NCBI GenBank assembly: GCA_024405855.1
Contig: JAKSNZ010000005.1
Coordinates: forward strand, 1-64,000
Reading direction: 5' to 3'
From: Paludibacteraceae bacterium
Lineage (GTDB): Bacteria > Bacteroidota > Bacteroidia > Bacteroidales > Paludibacteraceae
Length of the DNA stretch: 64,000 bases
The notes below the pieces were generated by a model that searched no databases, had not been told where the DNA came from, and was given only the letters and a program-made list of their open reading frames with translations. A program made the position numbers and the translations under genes. Shown in pieces: positions 4,227 to 27,869 of this stretch. Numbering within the stretch: position 1 is the first letter of the stretch; every line of letters starts with the position of its first letter.

Positions 4227-4234
4227 CAAAGTTA
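4227..4234 (-). promoter_or_regulatory. -7 box of valS operon
   Basis: Minus-strand TAACTTTG matches the Bacteroidota -7 consensus TAnnTTTG and lies 30 bases before the valS ATG. No clear -33 TTTG was found. Confidence 0.5.
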
Positions 4235-4246
4235 CAAAAAACGAGA

Positions 4247-4360
4247 GAAGATGCAAAAAAAACTTTGTTTTTTTGTAGTAATCTGACTTTTGATGTAACG
4301 CAAGCTTGCTTGCAGTTATGGAAAAAGTCAGATTACAAAAACGATAGTTTTTGCATCTTC
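4247..4360. repeat. Nested inverted-repeat element
   Basis: Two nested perfect 13-bp inverted repeats: 4247-4259 with 4348-4360 (GAAGATGCAAAAA) and 4278-4290 with 4324-4336 (GTAATCTGACTTT). The centre holds the palindrome GCAAGCTTGC. The 114-bp unit lies between the valS promoter and the end of the methyltransferase operon. It could terminate the R-M transcript or be a small non-autonomous palindromic element. Confidence 0.65.
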
Positions 4361-4369
4361 CGAGTGACA

Positions 4370-4402
4370 GTAACTTCTTTGAGCGAAGCGAAAAAAAGTT
4401 AC
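4370..4402. terminator. Second hairpin after the R-M operon
   Basis: GTAACTTCTTT (4370-4380) pairs with AAAAAAAGTTAC (4391-4402) with one mismatch. The loop GAGCGAAGCG is part of an 11-mer (GAGCGAAGCGA) that also occurs in the repeat inside the oxidoreductase gene at 22021-22119. It lies 33 bases past the stop of the last methyltransferase gene, so a terminator role is plausible. Confidence 0.35.
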
Positions 4403-20130: not shown

Positions 20131-20730
20131 TTAAAATGTACCGTTGGGTATAGCCGCTCCAAATTTCAGGTTGCTTAGGGTGTAGGTTGTAAAGTCTCCT
20201 GTAGGTTGGTGCAACTCCATATACTCAAGTGCATGGCTTGTTTTATTGTACCATAATACCACTTTATTGTAGCCTTTTGACACTTTCCCCTTTGCGGTAA
20301 GGGTGAATTTGTCATATTTGCCCTCTGATTTGTAATCAATGTTTGATGCTGACATTTCAGCAACCTCTTTAACATCTCCTTTCATGCTGAATATAAGAAG
20401 GTTGCGTAATGCTGTAAATTGAGAGCCTGCCTTTAGATTCTGTTTTATGCTTTTTTTGCCTGAATACATTGAAAGTGTAGTGTCAGTTATTTTGAAATAT
20501 TCACCTGCCGGCTCAGAATAAATCATGGACATTTTTTCACCTTCATAGTATAGTTTGCCCTTTTTGGCAACCTCTTTCTTTAGCATTTTAATACTTTTGA
20601 CCTCATCAAAATCACACACAATGTTCCTATATTTGGCATTGGTTGATTTAATGCCGCTAATTACGGCATCGTTTGCATAACACGATGCCATCATCATAAC
20701 ACCAAGAAACAATAATAATATTTTCTTCAT
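20131..20730 (-). CDS. LolA-like outer-membrane lipoprotein carrier
   Basis: 199 residues from ATG 20730; the frame continues upstream only through a heptad repeat array. The signal peptide is MKKILLLFLGVMMMASCYAN; a Cys at 17 could be a lipobox or part of a cleaved signal. The mature part has the LolA pattern: repeated beta strands, an FDEVKSIKMLKKEVAKKGKLYYEG-type first strand pair, and MSMIYSEPAGEYFKI. LolA-like proteins carry lipidated molecules through the periplasm. As last gene of the ketosynthase operon, it may handle the product of that pathway rather than ordinary lipoproteins. Confidence 0.75.
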   Translation of the reverse strand: MKKILLLFLGVMMMASCYANDAVISGIKSTNAKYRNIVCDFDEVKSIKMLKKEVAKKGKLYYEGEKMSMIYSEPAGEYFKITDTTLSMYSGKKSIKQNLKAGSQFTALRNLLIFSMKGDVKEVAEMSASNIDYKSEGKYDKFTLTAKGKVSKGYNKVVLWYNKTSHALEYMELHQPTGDFTTYTLSNLKFGAAIPNGTF

Positions 20731-20749
20731 AGCAGTAAATTTATAGTAG

Positions 20750-20816
20750 TTGACAGTTGACAATTGACAGTTGACAGTTGATAGTGAAAATTCATTGTCC
20801 ACTGTCCACTCTCCAC
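20750..20816. repeat. Two adjacent heptad repeat arrays
   Basis: Five copies of TTGACAR/TTGATAG at 20750-20784, then three copies of TGTCCAC/TCTCCAC at 20796-20816. The array ends at the fabG-like stop and would form part of the leader of the lolA-like gene. Confidence 0.85.
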
Positions 20817-21550
20817 TAAGTGTATAGTGCTCCATTAACAGCAATAACTTCTCCGTTTACATACGCTGCCTCTGGTGATGCCAAAAATGCCACAACTGCC
20901 GCAACCTCTTCAGGTGTTCCGAACCGCCCGGCAGGAATCTGTGCAGAAAGAGCCTTTTCATCAAGCCCTTCAACCATATCTGTCTTAACAAAGCCAGGTG
21001 CTACGGCGTTTACTGTAACACGTTTCTTTGCAACTTCCTGTGCCAATGCCTTTGTTGCGGCAATAAGTCCGCCCTTTGCGGCAGAGTAGTTTGTCTGTCC
21101 GGGCAAACCTTTCTGTCCTGAAAGAGAAGCCATGTTTACAATTCTACCATATTTTTTTATAAGCATAGGTTGAAGAAGCGGACGGGTTACATTGTAGAAT
21201 GAACCAAGGTTTGTGTTCAACACTTTTTGCCAATCTTCACTCTCCATCCATAGCATCAGGTTATCACGGCGGATACCGGCGTTATTTACAAGAACCTCAA
21301 TGTAGTCATCGGGGTGAGACGCCTGCCAGCCTTCAATTGCCGCTGTTGCCTGTTCTGTGCTGCTTACATCAAATTTAAGAAGTTCTCCTTCAGGATATCC
21401 TGCCTCTTTAATTTGTGAAAGAGTTTCATTTGCCGCGGCATCGTTGCCTGCATAATTTATTACTACTGAATAGCCCATAGAGGCTAATTTTAGAGAAACA
21501 GCTCTGCCTATTCCTCTGCTTCCTCCAGTTACCAATGCGAATTTATTCAT
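20816..21550 (-). CDS. 3-oxoacyl-ACP reductase (FabG-like)
   Basis: 244 residues, short-chain dehydrogenase fold. Reduces 3-oxoacyl-ACP with NADPH. Cofactor loop TGGSRGIGRAV near 8-18, NNAG near 90, and the Ser-Tyr-Lys catalytic set in MASLSGQKGLPGQTNYSAAK are intact. In this operon it is the expected ketoreductase partner of the ketosynthase at 26652. It could also serve general fatty acid synthesis, since no other fabG is in the window. Confidence 0.9.
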   Translation of the reverse strand: MNKFALVTGGSRGIGRAVSLKLASMGYSVVINYAGNDAAANETLSQIKEAGYPEGELLKFDVSSTEQATAAIEGWQASHPDDYIEVLVNNAGIRRDNLMLWMESEDWQKVLNTNLGSFYNVTRPLLQPMLIKKYGRIVNMASLSGQKGLPGQTNYSAAKGGLIAATKALAQEVAKKRVTVNAVAPGFVKTDMVEGLDEKALSAQIPAGRFGTPEEVAAVVAFLASPEAAYVNGEVIAVNGALYT

Positions 21551-21584
21551 ATTTTTCCTTTTGTTATATAGTTACATTTGTTCT

Positions 21585-23153
21585 CTATTCTTTTTCGTGA
21601 TTTTCAATTTTCAATTCTTTTATTATCTCTTTACAAGTGAACAGTGCTGTCATACTGACTCCCAAAACCCCGTGCAGGTTTAAATTCTGCCCTGTAAGAA
21701 GCAGGTTTTTTATGGGAGTGCGTGGTGTAAGGACAGTGGTCATCGGGGATTCAAAGTCCTTGCGTATGCCGTACGAACTGCCGTTTATTGTATTTGTATA
21801 AAGTTTATATGTAAGCGGTGTGCTTGTAAAAATGCGGTCAACGGCACCTGTCAAACCAGGTATCATTTGCTCAGCCATTCTTAAGCATTCCTCTGTCTTT
21901 TTATTCTTAAACTCAACATAATCCTCACCTCTATGTCCCATGGGTTTGTCTGCCCACCGCTCAACTTCGCTCCAAGCCATAGGTGTAATTATGTCTATGT
22001 TTTCAACATAGACATTATTACCTTCTCTATTGGGGGATACCCCCAAACCCCTACGTGCTTCGCACGGAGAACTGTCGTTCTCTGTCGCTTCGCTCCTTAA
22101 CTCCTTAACTCCTTGACCCTTATTTTTGGGGTAGTAGTGTATCAGCATCCTATCCGTCTTCCCCGGAGTATAGTTCCATAGGTCTGCATTCTCATAGATA
22201 TATAGGTTCTTATTAAGGTATGGAATGGCATCCGGTTTAAGTCTGATGTTTGCTGTAAAAGTGCCTATGGTGTTTTTTAGGTTCTGAATGCGTGAGCGAT
22301 ACACCCTCTTCAGATAAGGCGTCTCTTCTATAAGCCCAACTGTATATGACGGGTGTACATTACTTATAACCCATTTACATTCAATGGTTTCCTCTCCGTT
22401 TACCACGATTCCTGAAACTGCTCCTTCTGAATCAACTTTAATGGATGTTACATCGGTGTTTTTAAGAATAGTGCCACCCATAGCCTCTATATCGACAGCC
22501 AAATGCTCTGCTATAAGTGAGCCGCCACCGTCAAGCCTATATGCACCTCTTAGAAAAGAATCATTGATTTGGGCAAAAGTGTATAACGGCAGGTTTGGAG
22601 ACAACTCCATTTTCAGAGAAGTTCCGCATAGCACATCACGCAAACGGCTGTCTGTTATAGTATCGGTGAGGAATTTATAGGCACTTACACCAAAAAGTGA
22701 AGTGGAGTAGAAATCAGTGTCCTCTTTTGGATTCAGAGAGTCAAAAATATGGTCTCCTACACTTTTAAGCGTATCCACGTATTGCTTTATGTTATCCTTT
22801 TGGTCAGGAAAACGCTCTGTAAGTGCGGCTGCAAAGTCATTATGACCACCCATAAAAGGATAGCTTTCTCCGTCAATTACAACGGTGTCAAATTCATGGT
22901 CAAGTTTTTTCCAAGGCAGTTCCAATAGGTTAAAATAACTGAACAAGCGGTTCAGGCTCTCCCCATCGTTCATTGCCCCCACATAGTGAAAACCGGTGTC
23001 AAACGTAGCGGTACCACGCTTAAAAGTCTGAAGACAACCACCTAATACGGCGTTTTTCTCCACAATGCAGACTTTCATTCCGTTTTTAGACAGAATGTAT
23101 CCGCACTCAAGTCCTCCAAGACCTGCTCCAATTATAGCAACATCATACTTCAT
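21585..23153 (-). CDS. FAD-dependent oxidoreductase (CrtI/RetSat-like)
   Basis: 522 residues from ATG 23153, overlapping the exporter gene by 11 bases. The N-terminal dinucleotide-binding motif is VAIIGAGLGGLECGY, followed by EKNAVLGGCLQTF and FDTGFHYVG, typical of phytoene desaturase/retinol saturase-type flavoproteins. The C-terminus has KNLLLTGQNLNLHGVLGVSMTA. About 33 residues near 347-379 are encoded by an inserted structured repeat (22021-22119) that interrupts the expected sequence between NKGQ and NVYVEN without breaking the frame. Substrate unknown; a polyene or lipid is likely given the operon. Confidence 0.85.
   Translation of the reverse strand: MKYDVAIIGAGLGGLECGYILSKNGMKVCIVEKNAVLGGCLQTFKRGTATFDTGFHYVGAMNDGESLNRLFSYFNLLELPWKKLDHEFDTVVIDGESYPFMGGHNDFAAALTERFPDQKDNIKQYVDTLKSVGDHIFDSLNPKEDTDFYSTSLFGVSAYKFLTDTITDSRLRDVLCGTSLKMELSPNLPLYTFAQINDSFLRGAYRLDGGGSLIAEHLAVDIEAMGGTILKNTDVTSIKVDSEGAVSGIVVNGEETIECKWVISNVHPSYTVGLIEETPYLKRVYRSRIQNLKNTIGTFTANIRLKPDAIPYLNKNLYIYENADLWNYTPGKTDRMLIHYYPKNKGQGVKELRSEATENDSSPCEARRGLGVSPNREGNNVYVENIDIITPMAWSEVERWADKPMGHRGEDYVEFKNKKTEECLRMAEQMIPGLTGAVDRIFTSTPLTYKLYTNTINGSSYGIRKDFESPMTTVLTPRTPIKNLLLTGQNLNLHGVLGVSMTALFTCKEIIKELKIENHEKE
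22021..22119 (-). repeat. Structured repeat inserted in frame in the oxidoreductase gene
   Basis: Three consecutive hairpins: 22030-22046 (TTGGGGG/CCCCCAA), 22054-22066 (CGTGC/GCACG) and 22067-22082 (GAGAAC/GTTCTC). A tandem octad (AGGAGTTA on the minus strand, two copies plus a partial third) follows. This is intergenic-type repeat sequence, yet it is read through as about 33 residues of protein. Confidence 0.75.
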
Positions 23154-25575
23154 TCTTTTTATATAGCCACGGTTCAAGTGTATATGTTATCAGCAATGTT
23201 GCAAGCATACCAATAAGGGTTGTTAAACCTATAGAAGATATGGCTGGGTGTGTGGCAAATGTCAGTGAAGCAATGCTTACCACAAGCACTACCGCTGATA
23301 GGAATATCGCCGTTTTGTGATATGTAAGCAGTTGCGTGTTGCCTTTTTTGCCTGCTAACAGACCGTCCATAACAAATATACTGTAATCAACGCCAACACC
23401 AAATATGAATGTTGAAATTATAATGTTTATCAGGTTGAACTGCAAACCAAAAATATTCATTATTCCAAGCACTATGAACCAGCTTAGGAACATTGGTAGA
23501 AATGCTATGGTTCCAATAATAAGGCTTCTGAATGATATTAAAAGTACAATGAATACAAACAGTGTGGAAATCCAAAGCACAGTGTTAAAGTCATTGTTAA
23601 GTATCTGAACCATATCCTGCGTATAGAAGAACGGGTCAATAACCACTGTATGCGGTGTCTCCACTATCAACTCACTTGCGTGTCGGCGGTTCTCTTGTGT
23701 TATTTGAACAGGAGTGAACACCATATATGTGGAGTCTGTATATTCAATCCAATTACTCATTAAGCCTTCAGGTAAAATGTCTGCATCGTAGAGTAAAGAG
23801 GGCTGATATTCAGCATCAAGCATACCAAAGAAAGATACAAATGTATCTTCGTCAAATCCATATTTTTTTCCTGATTCAATAATGTTTTTCTTAACCTTAT
23901 CCTTTTTATCTTGTGTCCAATAGTTGTTCCAAGTGTTTATGCGTTCCGCTTGTGTATCGGTGTCAAGCAGAAGGGTGGAGGTGCATGCAAATCCTTGAAT
24001 CTCACCTGAATCCTTTATAGCGGCAAGCCTTTCATCAAGAGCCTTGTTATAAACCAACGCACTGTCAAGATTTTTTCCGGTAACGGCAAAATAGCCTGTA
24101 TAGTTGCCGTGTGCTGTTTTTTCAGACAGCATCTCGCTTGAACGTAGCACTTTTGGATTATGATAACCTATGTTTTTTAGGTCAGAGTCAAACTGCACGT
24201 TTCTTGACTCAAAAATACAAACGCCTGAAATTACAATCAGCACTATTACAAGCCATGTTTGCTTGTCAAGTGAGTATGAATTTATTTTTTCAAGCCATGC
24301 AAATGCTTTTTCAGAACGCTTGTTGTTGCTTGTGCTGAAGAATTGCGGCAGGAACAAGAGACAGAAAAGTGTGGTTCCAACCATAGCCAGCGATGCAAAA
24401 ATTCCAAAATCACGTAGTAGGGCTGATTCAGTAAACACAAGTCCCATAAACGCACCTATCGTAGTAAGGCTGCCTAAAATTACAGGCTTTGTCTGTTCCT
24501 TTATAACTGTTTCAGGGTCAGATACATATTTGTAATGCGTGATTACATGCAGACAATAACTGAGAGCCACTCCTAATATTATGGCTCCGATGCCAAGTGC
24601 CATAAGTGACATTGTGCCTTGTATCAGATACATAATGCCAAGTGCAAAAAACGCTCCGTAAATTACAGGGCATAGAAGCATTGGCATTGTAGATGCGTTC
24701 TTGAAGCAAAGTGAGATAAAAAGTATTACAAATAGTATTGATACTCCAAGTGTAAGAGCCAAATCCTTTTTGATTTGTCTTGAGTTGAAGACACTTGTGA
24801 TAGGCGCTCCATGGAACAGGACTTCAACATCAGGGTGAATTTCTGAAATGGAATCCACTTGATTTTCAATCTGCTTAGTAAGGCGAATGCCCGTCTTGGA
24901 GTCAAATGCCTTGAAGTTTGGACTTAGGAAAGCAATGCAGACTGTACTGTCAGGAGTAAAGAAGTGTCCTCCAATAATCTTATAGTTTCCTCCTAATGCA
25001 CTTGCAGCCTCTTTTGCCTTGTATCTAAGTGAATTTCTCAGTCCTACAGGGTCAAATTGAATGAGTTGTACGGCAGTTTCTGCATCGGCGGACTGAATCA
25101 TATCAAAATTCTCTGCCATTTGAGCATCGATGCTCTCCTTAGAAAAGGCGGAATCAAGTTTGGAATAGTCATTCTCTGTAAGAAATACAGGCACGTTTTC
25201 AAACAGATATTCAATGCCTGACATCATAAGTCCGTCATCAAGATAGTAGAGAATGTTGTTAATGGAGGAATCGGAGTCTGCCGCCAAAAGATTCTCACAA
25301 AATGTGTCGCAAGTCTCAGAAAGCAGGTCTGTGTTTACTGTAGAATCTTTAGTGGTGAAAAGAATGAAAACCTTATCCTTGACTTTCAGATTGTCAAATA
25401 CAAGTTGTTCGGAATCTCCTATTGTGTTTGAAGGAAGCAGTTTTGATATGTCCTCCTCATACGTTATTTGTAGTCCTAATGCCAGAAATATAAGAAAACT
25501 GCCTATTAGGGTAATGTAGAATACAATTTTGTGGCTTTTGAAAAAGCGGTATACAGACAGTGGAAATTTATACAT
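23143..25575 (-). CDS. MMPL/RND-family exporter
   Basis: 810 residues, inner-membrane. Two halves each have one N-terminal helix, a large periplasmic domain, then about five clustered helices, giving about 12 transmembrane segments (first cluster about 255-420, second about 640-800). This is the RND/MMPL lipid-exporter layout. GVALSYCLHVITHY and FGVGVDYSIFVMDG are the matching helix-4-type motifs of the two halves. MMPL proteins export lipids, polyketides or pigments. It lies between the dehydratase and the oxidoreductase and overlaps both, so it probably moves the locus product across the inner membrane. Confidence 0.87.
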   Translation of the reverse strand: MYKFPLSVYRFFKSHKIVFYITLIGSFLIFLALGLQITYEEDISKLLPSNTIGDSEQLVFDNLKVKDKVFILFTTKDSTVNTDLLSETCDTFCENLLAADSDSSINNILYYLDDGLMMSGIEYLFENVPVFLTENDYSKLDSAFSKESIDAQMAENFDMIQSADAETAVQLIQFDPVGLRNSLRYKAKEAASALGGNYKIIGGHFFTPDSTVCIAFLSPNFKAFDSKTGIRLTKQIENQVDSISEIHPDVEVLFHGAPITSVFNSRQIKKDLALTLGVSILFVILFISLCFKNASTMPMLLCPVIYGAFFALGIMYLIQGTMSLMALGIGAIILGVALSYCLHVITHYKYVSDPETVIKEQTKPVILGSLTTIGAFMGLVFTESALLRDFGIFASLAMVGTTLFCLLFLPQFFSTSNNKRSEKAFAWLEKINSYSLDKQTWLVIVLIVISGVCIFESRNVQFDSDLKNIGYHNPKVLRSSEMLSEKTAHGNYTGYFAVTGKNLDSALVYNKALDERLAAIKDSGEIQGFACTSTLLLDTDTQAERINTWNNYWTQDKKDKVKKNIIESGKKYGFDEDTFVSFFGMLDAEYQPSLLYDADILPEGLMSNWIEYTDSTYMVFTPVQITQENRRHASELIVETPHTVVIDPFFYTQDMVQILNNDFNTVLWISTLFVFIVLLISFRSLIIGTIAFLPMFLSWFIVLGIMNIFGLQFNLINIIISTFIFGVGVDYSIFVMDGLLAGKKGNTQLLTYHKTAIFLSAVVLVVSIASLTFATHPAISSIGLTTLIGMLATLLITYTLEPWLYKKNEV

Positions 25576-26425
25576 TTGTTTTGCACAAAGTTAGTTTAAT
25601 GTCAATGAATGTCTCTGTTTCATTGTAAACTGTACCTTGAACGGAAAATCCGTCTTCCATAGGACTGACAGATGCTTTGAAATAGAGAACGCTATGTTTG
25701 ATAGGTGTAATCAACGCCGTGTATCGGCATTGCTTTATATCGCTGATTGTCAGTTTTGTGTTGGTGTAATGCTCAATGCACTCCCTTAGCATGTTAAGAT
25801 TGCATACGCCAGGACATACAGGGTCATTAGGGAAGTGCCCTCTATAGACTTCACAATTAGGATTAAGTTTCACTGTTGAAACTATTTCTCCGTCCGATTC
25901 CTGTTTTTGAGCCAACAGGTCAAAATATTTTGAGGAATTGTGTTCAACAGTTGAGATGTTTGAAGCCTTTGAACCGTTACCATCTTCTATTGCAATCTTT
26001 AGTCCGGTAGTGCATACGGTTTCATTTTTGCAGGTTGTCTCCGCTTGTAGAAGAGTTACATTTCCAACAATACCCATTACCTTAATGTGCGTTGTCAGAC
26101 TTGAACCTGTCTTAGGAAATGAAATCAAATGAAATTTTTTAATTTCACCTATGTAACCTATTGGAGCGGGCTTTCCTTCAATGCGGGCTTGATAACCAGC
26201 AAAAGCCGAAGCCGATTGAGCGATATGCTCTATCAGTCCCGGCTCTGTGAATTTACCGTTTTTGCAAAACAGATTGTCCTCTTTGATGGTAAGTCCTGTT
26301 ATAGCCTCTTCAGAGGTGGATTCATAAAGGGTGTCCACCATCATAATAGGACTCCTTTGCGGAATCAGTTCCTTAATCTGTTCTCCAACAAACAGTGGAT
26401 TAAATGTGCTCTGCAATGTAGTCAT
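25568..26425 (-). CDS. Fused double-hotdog 3-hydroxyacyl-ACP dehydratase (ApeP-ApeI-like)
   Basis: 285 residues from ATG 26425; the longer reading begins with TTG. Two hotdog domains (about 10-140 and 165-285). Domain 1 starts LIPQRSPIMMVD and has Glu66 in PGLIEHIAQSAS, but no GHFPG histidine before it. Domain 2 has YRGHFPNDPVCPGV with His197, but Asn211 occupies the position 14 residues later where FabZ has its catalytic Glu. One His and one Glu would therefore form a single composite site. This resembles a fusion of the ApeP and ApeI dehydratase types. It overlaps the ACP gene by 26 bases and the exporter by 8. Confidence 0.8.
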   Translation of the reverse strand: MTTLQSTFNPLFVGEQIKELIPQRSPIMMVDTLYESTSEEAITGLTIKEDNLFCKNGKFTEPGLIEHIAQSASAFAGYQARIEGKPAPIGYIGEIKKFHLISFPKTGSSLTTHIKVMGIVGNVTLLQAETTCKNETVCTTGLKIAIEDGNGSKASNISTVEHNSSKYFDLLAQKQESDGEIVSTVKLNPNCEVYRGHFPNDPVCPGVCNLNMLRECIEHYTNTKLTISDIKQCRYTALITPIKHSVLYFKASVSPMEDGFSVQGTVYNETETFIDIKLTLCKTNV

Positions 26426-26639
26426 AAAGTTTACCAAAAGTGGTAAGCTGAGAAACTTCAGCAGGTTTGATTTTTACACCAAACTCATTCTCAATAAGGG
26501 CAACCATATCAACAATACTCAAACTGTCAAGTTGAAGTGCTTGCTTAATGTTTGCATCCGGTGTCATAACATCTGTTTCAACCTCAAATTCTTCACTAAG
26601 AAGAGTGTTCACTTTTTCAATAAGTTCTGCTTTTTCCAT
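26400..26639 (-). CDS. Acyl carrier protein of the ketosynthase locus
   Basis: 79 residues. The attachment site is Ser39 in LQLDSLSIVD, divergent from the GADSLD motif of the housekeeping ACP at 11959. That divergence suggests a dedicated carrier for the adjacent ketosynthase and dehydratase. It lies 12 bases after the ketosynthase gene. Confidence 0.9.
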   Translation of the reverse strand: MEKAELIEKVNTLLSEEFEVETDVMTPDANIKQALQLDSLSIVDMVALIENEFGVKIKPAEVSQLTTFGKLYDYIAEHI

Positions 26640-26651
26640 AATTTATAAAAG

Positions 26652-27869
26652 TTATAAGTTCTTTATAATCAAAGTACTATTAGTGCCGCCAAAGCCAAAT
26701 GAGTTAGACAGGAATGTGTCAAATTTCTTGCTTACACGTTTGCTTGGAATATTCAGTTTTGCTGAATCCTCATCAGGGTTCTCAAAGTTGATGTTAGGTG
26801 CAATAAAGCCGTTCTTCATCATTAATGTTGAATATATAACCTCCGATGCACCAGCCATCCACATTTCATGACCTGTTTGGGATTTTGTAGAAGTAACCTC
26901 TACATTATAGTCTCTAAATACATTATAAATTGCCTTTGCCTCATTTCTGTCTCCTACAGGAGTAGATGTTGCATGTGCGTTTATATAGCCAATTTCCCGT
27001 ATGTCAATGCCTGCGTCCTTGATTGCCATCTGAAGTGAACGGCTTGGACCGTCAACGTTAGGAACAGAAATATGGTCTCCGTTTGAAGAGAATCCATATC
27101 CAATAACTTCAGCAATGATAGGTGCACCACGGCGGACAGCAGATTCATAACTTTCAATTATTACAGTTGCGGCACCGCCTCCAGGAACAAGACCGTCTCT
27201 GTCACGGTCAAACGGACGTGAAGCCTTTGTAGGTTGGTCTTCTCTTGTAGAGAATGCACTTATGCCGTCAAAACTGCCCACTGCATACGGATTAACCTCT
27301 TGCGCTCCACCGCATACAACCATCTCCTGTAAACCATTACGGATTAGTAAAGTGCCAAGACCTATGGCATGAGAACCGCTTGCACAGGCACCTGAAACTG
27401 TAAGGTTAATACCTCTAAGCTTGAATATGCAGGCAAGGTTCATGGTTACGGTTGAGTTCATTGATTGGAATATGCCGCCTGAACCTACAAGTGTAGTGTC
27501 TTTTTTCTCCAACATGGTGGTGATACTACGGAAAACAGGTTCTGCAGAGCTGTCATTTCCATAAAGCAGACCAACTTCATTGGCATTCAAGTAATCTTGG
27601 TCAATTCCTGCATTCTTCAGTGCTTCTGCGGTTGCAACATAAGCATATTTTGCCTGCTCCGGCATATACACACGCTGACTACGGCTTAATTCCTTTTTCA
27701 AATCAGGCACTTCAAGATAGGATGTAAGTGCTGAACGGAATCCCATATCTTTACGGGCTTGGTCAAATACAATACCTGACTTGCCGTCATAAAGAGACTG
27801 TCTTACGGCATCCAAACCGTTACCCAGGCATGAATAAATGCCCATACCGGTAATTACTACACGTTTCAT
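26652..27869 (-). CDS. 3-oxoacyl-ACP synthase of the ketosynthase locus
   Basis: 405 residues of the FabB/FabF family. Condenses extender units with an ACP-bound chain. Catalytic Cys near 162 in SGACASGSHA, His in NAHATSTPVGD and a second His in STKSQTGHEMWMAGA are present. The GHEMWMAGASE context differs from the GHLLGAAG of the housekeeping FabF (10699), as is seen in specialised KAS enzymes. First gene of the operon running to the lolA-like gene. No chain-length-factor-like partner is present. Confidence 0.9.
   Translation of the reverse strand: MKRVVITGMGIYSCLGNGLDAVRQSLYDGKSGIVFDQARKDMGFRSALTSYLEVPDLKKELSRSQRVYMPEQAKYAYVATAEALKNAGIDQDYLNANEVGLLYGNDSSAEPVFRSITTMLEKKDTTLVGSGGIFQSMNSTVTMNLACIFKLRGINLTVSGACASGSHAIGLGTLLIRNGLQEMVVCGGAQEVNPYAVGSFDGISAFSTREDQPTKASRPFDRDRDGLVPGGGAATVIIESYESAVRRGAPIIAEVIGYGFSSNGDHISVPNVDGPSRSLQMAIKDAGIDIREIGYINAHATSTPVGDRNEAKAIYNVFRDYNVEVTSTKSQTGHEMWMAGASEVIYSTLMMKNGFIAPNINFENPDEDSAKLNIPSKRVSKKFDTFLSNSFGFGGTNSTLIIKNL

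Follow-up and report, generated by a model that had tools for sequence, protein, structure and literature searches.

An in-frame hairpin-rich repeat in a CrtI/RetSat-like gene of Paludibacteraceae and the inverted copy of host DNA beside it

Introduction

The window analysed here is a 64,000-nt stretch of a Paludibacteraceae bacterium, contig C45 of MAG G000 (1.76 Mb, 95.65% complete). Within it, an oxidoreductase gene contains a run of palindromes of the kind expected between genes, which raises the question of whether a repeat has inserted into a coding sequence and, if so, how it arrived. Elements of this sort have precedents. The RPEs of Rickettsia, 105-146 bp long, occur in 19 reading frames and also between genes (PMC2229807); short in-frame palindromic repeats have already been reported in several phyla, and REPs of CGTC type in Bacteroidetes (PMC3733652).

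Results

The repeat is an in-frame insertion larger than its palindromic part

The initial annotation proposed a palindromic repeat inserted in frame in a FAD oxidoreductase gene, and the sequence is as described, in frame in ORF 21585-23177(-). The bounds given for it, 22021-22119, do enclose repeat sequence. However, the residues NVYV, taken as host, are encoded by an additional segment, X' (22005-22021), and the whole insertion spans window positions 22005-22122 on the minus strand. In order from NKG to IDIITP, it comprises an array of octads (22122-22093), the GC-rich core termed E (22096-22021), and X' (22021-22005). The core measures 76 nt; counting the array and X' as well brings the element to about 118 nt. 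The features are as follows.

21585..23177, minus strand: host gene, FAD-dependent oxidoreductase, CrtI/CrtD/RetSat-like; probable start ATG at 23153
22093..22122, minus strand: octad array (GGAGTTAA)n on the 5' side of the element; TRF, period 8, 3.9 copies; differs between G000 and G002
22021..22096, minus strand: E core of 76 nt, with four hairpins and, at the 3' end, a box ending AGAAGG; defined by genomic copies, alignment and covariation
22087..22093, minus strand: hairpin 1, GC-GAA-GC; covariation helix 1, 96% of cells paired
22067..22082, minus strand: hairpin 2, GAGAAC-GACA-GTTCTC; covariation helix 2, compensatory changes among copies at all six pairs
22054..22066, minus strand: hairpin 3, CGTGC-GAA-GCACG; covariation helix 3
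22030..22046, minus strand: hairpin 4, TTGGGGG-TAT-CCCCCAA; covariation helix 4
22005..22021, minus strand: X', inverted copy of downstream host sequence, 16/17 complementary, translated within NNVYV; absent in G003 and G012
21985..22001, minus strand: X, downstream host arm encoding N-I-D-I-I-T; aligns with host sequence of E-less homologues

The best NCBIfam match of the host gene is CrtD, below the cut-off, and the top Foldseek match of its protein is the gamma-carotenoid desaturase 4rep. Its neighbours (window 20131-27869) include genes for FabG, an MMPL exporter, a ketosynthase and a hotdog dehydratase, a set reminiscent of aryl polyene clusters.

The closest homologue of the protein, from G002 (87% identity), carries the insert in frame. 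The protein alignment shows no insert in G003 (75% identity), G012 (65%) or any other homologue for which the correct ORF was read (L022, L026-L037, L039-L046); the rows L021, L023, L024, L025 and L038 took up a neighbouring ORF and are uninformative. Thus the segment is not a stretch of ordinary residues present in all homologues, the alternative against which the initial annotation had set its claim.

An AlphaFold2 model built from a 23-sequence alignment has a pLDDT of 85.5 overall and of about 28 for insert residues 346-377, flanked by strands 335-342 and 382-392; on this prediction the insert is a disordered turn joining two beta strands. A single-sequence structure model of the protein was uninformative (pLDDT 31). 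With the frame intact, the insert residues, including ELRSEATENDSSPCEAR, are probably translated in the cell.

Over the 96-nt insert G000 and G002 differ at 3 sites, and dS is 0.05 versus 0.77 in the host flanks, where dN is 0.09; the crtI-like gene is under purifying selection. The low insert dS could be read as a sign that the nucleotides of the in-gene copy are strongly constrained. We rejected this reading, which is suggestive only, because alignment columns 202-290 elsewhere in the host gene are equally similar between the two genomes. Short-tract recombination could explain the value for the same reason.

A separate case of repeats in coding sequence may exist in a lipoprotein-like protein (L306-L313; G000:C34:58274-59359 and orthologues). 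Its linker seems to encode in-frame tandem repeats of intergenic type that differ by species: the octad in G000, KGQGTRVKGQG in G010 and STNHRITESPNHH in G003.

E belongs to a dispersed family of covarying hairpins

Family E combines an octad array with four hairpins that covary and, at the 3' end, the box GGGG..CCCC..TAAAAAAGG. A genome search, the second check proposed initially, recovered other copies: a 108-nt query matched G000 at 16 places, with E<1e-5 at eight (best BLAST E=8.5e-18), and the 76-nt core matched other loci at 83-93%. The 11-mer GAGCGAAGCGA at 4381-4391, earlier read as a recurrence, is present but is accompanied by no other part of E and is not a copy. It lies just beside a region upstream of valS (window 4229-4400) that contains nested long inverted repeats with stems of 13 and 14 bp and loops of 88 and 31.

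The end-box pattern has 11 matches in G000 and none in a reversed control; overlapping counts give 35 boxes in G002, 14 in G003 and 0 in G012. Core matches across the genus are found in G000, G002, G003 and G010, with G005 marginal. With two mismatches allowed, the box occurs in 0/392 other sampled Bacteroidales genomes. An exact GTDB scan added boxes from another three Bacteroidales MAGs; these lie at tRNA 3' ends, and a long inverted repeat comes after each (scores 17, 23 and 24).

The four hairpins are supported by 26 aligned copies, in which covariation exceeds both shuffled and slid controls: 42 cells changed on both sides, against a shuffle mean of 11, and none of 500 shuffles scored as high. 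Folding the in-gene stretch as a single RNA gives a result only slightly out of the ordinary (z -1.7), so the structural evidence for E is covariation among copies rather than folding energy. Rfam 15 gave no match above gathering score in the ten element loci searched. Of all the copies gathered, just the orthologous crtI-like pair fall within long open frames that belong to a recognisable gene, and the remaining frames listed over E copies are short.

Other small repeats were seen in these genomes. CGTC-ended repeats such as CGTCATCTCGAGCATAGCGAGAGATC, which resemble CGTC-tagged REPs, lie upstream of E at L007, L004 and L012. Another small element, made up of TTTTAAC-GAGCCGTAGGCGAG-GTTAAAA and (ATGATGT)n, lies after E and in tandem with it at L086, L092, L094, L104 and L108 (G002/G010). 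A different hairpin-rich repeat, ending AAAAAGG or AACAAGG, occurs in G001 at L296 (G001:C17:114824) and L267 (argG); at the tRNA locus it has an X'-E-X' layout, and it is possibly another E subfamily.

E is usually accompanied by an inverted copy of the downstream flank of its locus

The more unusual feature of the insertion, overlooked by the initial annotation, is the locus-specific inverted flank copy. Directly 3' of E, most copies carry the reverse complement of sequence slightly further downstream. Stems scoring at least 14 follow 27 of 51 E copies, which are partly orthologous between species and therefore not all independent; controls reach this score at 1/2000 window positions and in 1/2040 shuffles (0.05%), and the left flank of E at 1/54. 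In many copies below the threshold, a GAGCCGTAGGCGAG hairpin is enclosed by a shorter stem.

The downstream arm X is the start codon region at lpxB, pheS, trkA, lysC, ackA, argG, glgA, gcvH and sdr; elsewhere it is a tRNA or tmRNA 3' end or, in the crtI-like gene, mid-gene sequence. At start-codon loci of nineteen genes in six genomes, with an E box counted within 140 nt, stems of at least 14 are present in 17/26 loci with a box and 2/72 without. Long inverted repeats as a general start-codon feature were rejected: the 64-kb window has only three perfect stems of at least 12.

E-less orthologues of lpxB, ackA, lysC, gcvH, glgA and sdr retain X and lack X' (for example lpxB in G003, lysC in G002 and G010, ackA in G003 and G010). 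At lysC the stop and start codons are adjacent in E-less species, so the loop is also new. The association has exceptions: in G003, mfp and omp12 carry X' although no E box is present; at tRNA-Cys the G012 box is degenerate and G001 has a palindrome without a standard box, so that the palindrome may precede E at this locus.

Loops at start codons cluster near 30-35 or 66-68 nt. E-X'-E-X' arrays are present at L109, L114 and L121. By inspection, the flank left of E is directly duplicated at murC (about 20 nt), lysS (about 60) and L107 (about 80). The E-X'-loop unit, together with the first murC codons, occurs a second time in G003, at L060 (G003:C22), ahead of an unrelated ORF.

The two arms change together. 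The tRNA-Cys stem has three sequences at one position (G000; G002/G003; G010), each perfectly matched; matched X/X' changes are C to T at L048/L095, A to T at trkA and GAC to GAT at crtI, and a 2-nt difference at glgA is matched between the arms. Either selection or fold-back correction explains this covariation.

At lysC (L005/L080) and mfp (L008/L088) the species share identical E-bearing intergenic segments, while a few per cent of the adjoining coding DNA differs; the pattern hints at either constraint or a recent transfer.

Discussion

Origin of the insertion and of X'

On balance we think it probable that E is a non-autonomous REP/RPE-like family whose insertion is accompanied by an inverted flank copy, most likely through fold-back template switching. 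A hairpin-rich repeat of this Paludibacteraceae genus would have inserted in frame in the CrtI/RetSat-like gene before the G000/G002 split, at a beta turn that may tolerate extra residues, and the same event would have written X' from adjoining host DNA. During replication, a nascent strand stalled at a hairpin could fold back and copy its own flank, giving X', then copy E and rejoin the template; fold-back correction could later keep diverging X and X' complementary.

Template switching is favoured because X' is target-specific, because the signature is indifferent to whether the target is a start codon, a tRNA or the middle of a gene, and because candidate movers were missing. A Y1/RAYT transposase or a reverse transcriptase was rejected as the mover: no Y1 transposase (PF01797) was found in G000, G002, G003 or G010, MAGs that are themselves incomplete (G002 82%, G003 78%), and no reverse transcriptase (RVT_1) in G000. 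A mobilising enzyme could still have been missed, since the MAGs are incomplete and only these two families were sought. The proposed mechanism leaves some observations aside. Template switching alone does not explain the spread of E itself, a single fold-back does not predict the new loop at lysC, and X' at G003 mfp and omp12 and the G001 tRNA-Cys palindrome stand without the standard box.

A broader version, which we put forward tentatively and as somewhat less probable than the narrower one, posits a Bacteroidales family of small mobile palindromic elements in which each insertion, at genes, at tRNAs and once within coding sequence, would write an inverted target-flank copy as a target-specific hairpin arm.

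The most serious competing account, though we consider it rather unlikely, makes E and X' a mobile regulatory cassette of 5'-UTRs or 3' ends: X' would pair in the RNA with the ribosome-binding and start region or the tRNA 3' end and control translation or processing, the hairpin being kept by selection and not by mutation. X spans the start codon at eight of the genes named above (all but sdr), and this position, like the clustered loop lengths, looks non-random and could mean function; the hairpins covary, which could equally stem from selection, and at lysC and mfp the intergenic segments are identical where the coding flanks differ by a few per cent. Yet E with X' is also present within a coding sequence and at the 3' ends of tRNAs and tmRNA, no obvious theme unites the genes, and sister-species orthologues lack the signature.

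It is improbable that X'-loop-X palindromes were there before E and that a putative hairpin-preferring transposase or recombinase moved E into them. The tRNA terminator palindromes of relatives lacking a standard E box (G001 tRNA-Cys) and the G003 mfp palindrome would fit this order of events, but E-less orthologues of crtI, lpxB, lysC, ackA, gcvH, sdr and glgA have no palindrome, and the E-bearing genomes no Y1 transposase. Ordinary loop length variation or an assembly artefact, unrelated to any mobile repeat, is scarcely credible: homologues do vary in this turn, but two independently binned MAGs have the insert with the frame intact, and the genomic copies matching the 76-nt core at 83-93% contradict it.

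Relation to known repeats

The likeness to Rickettsia noted initially holds as an analogy, not as membership. Like RPEs, E is a palindromic repeat found between genes and in frame within a protein gene. Its length is of the order of 100 nt, 76 nt for the core and about 118 nt for the whole insertion, against 105-146 bp in RPEs. It differs in its unrelated phylum, in having four small hairpins instead of one long stem-loop, in the one coding site found (in two sister species) and in its locus-specific inverted flank copy.

GTAG and CGTC REPs are short and mostly intergenic, with some in genes, and show compensating stem variants; the CGTC type is reported from Bacteroidetes with no dedicated transposase (PMC3733652). 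E shares the short palindromic form, the mostly intergenic location and the compensating stem bases, but is a 76-nt four-hairpin unit without a conserved end tag, in genomes in which no RAYT was found. In place of a GTAG terminal tag, copies read CGTAGGGG, CGCAGGGG, CGAGGGGG or CGCGGGG before hairpin 4; the 26 aligned copies have no conserved CGTC at either end, where CGTC REPs have that tag with one stem of 8-9 bp and a 4-5 nt loop.

MITEs have common terminal inverted repeats and short direct target duplications, whereas the arms of E are locus-specific and, by inspection, only some loci (murC, lysS and L107) have direct duplications, which are long. The BrickBuilt MITEs of Porphyromonas gingivalis (PMC5771137) are also small repeats in a Bacteroidales genome, a likeness drawn from their description only. 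Template switching has been proposed to create and maintain hairpins (PMC8794818). The hairpins described there likewise involve a de novo inverted copy of adjoining DNA and arms kept complementary by matched changes; here, unlike there, the inverted copy is repeatedly tied to one repeat family. Searches of the open-licence literature yielded no Bacteroidota example of a palindromic insert that is in frame and has an arm copied from the flank, a negative that is weak evidence that none exists.

With this insertion the range of protein-invading palindromic repeats comes to include a gene of Bacteroidota, and its empty and filled sites offer a two-state comparison for a protein absorbing such an insert. 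The inverted flank copy provides a testable footprint of spread for small repeats without a known transposase, a matter left open for CGTC REPs (PMC3733652). If X' is functional, some species would carry a hairpin covering the start codon at many housekeeping genes, and their sisters would not.
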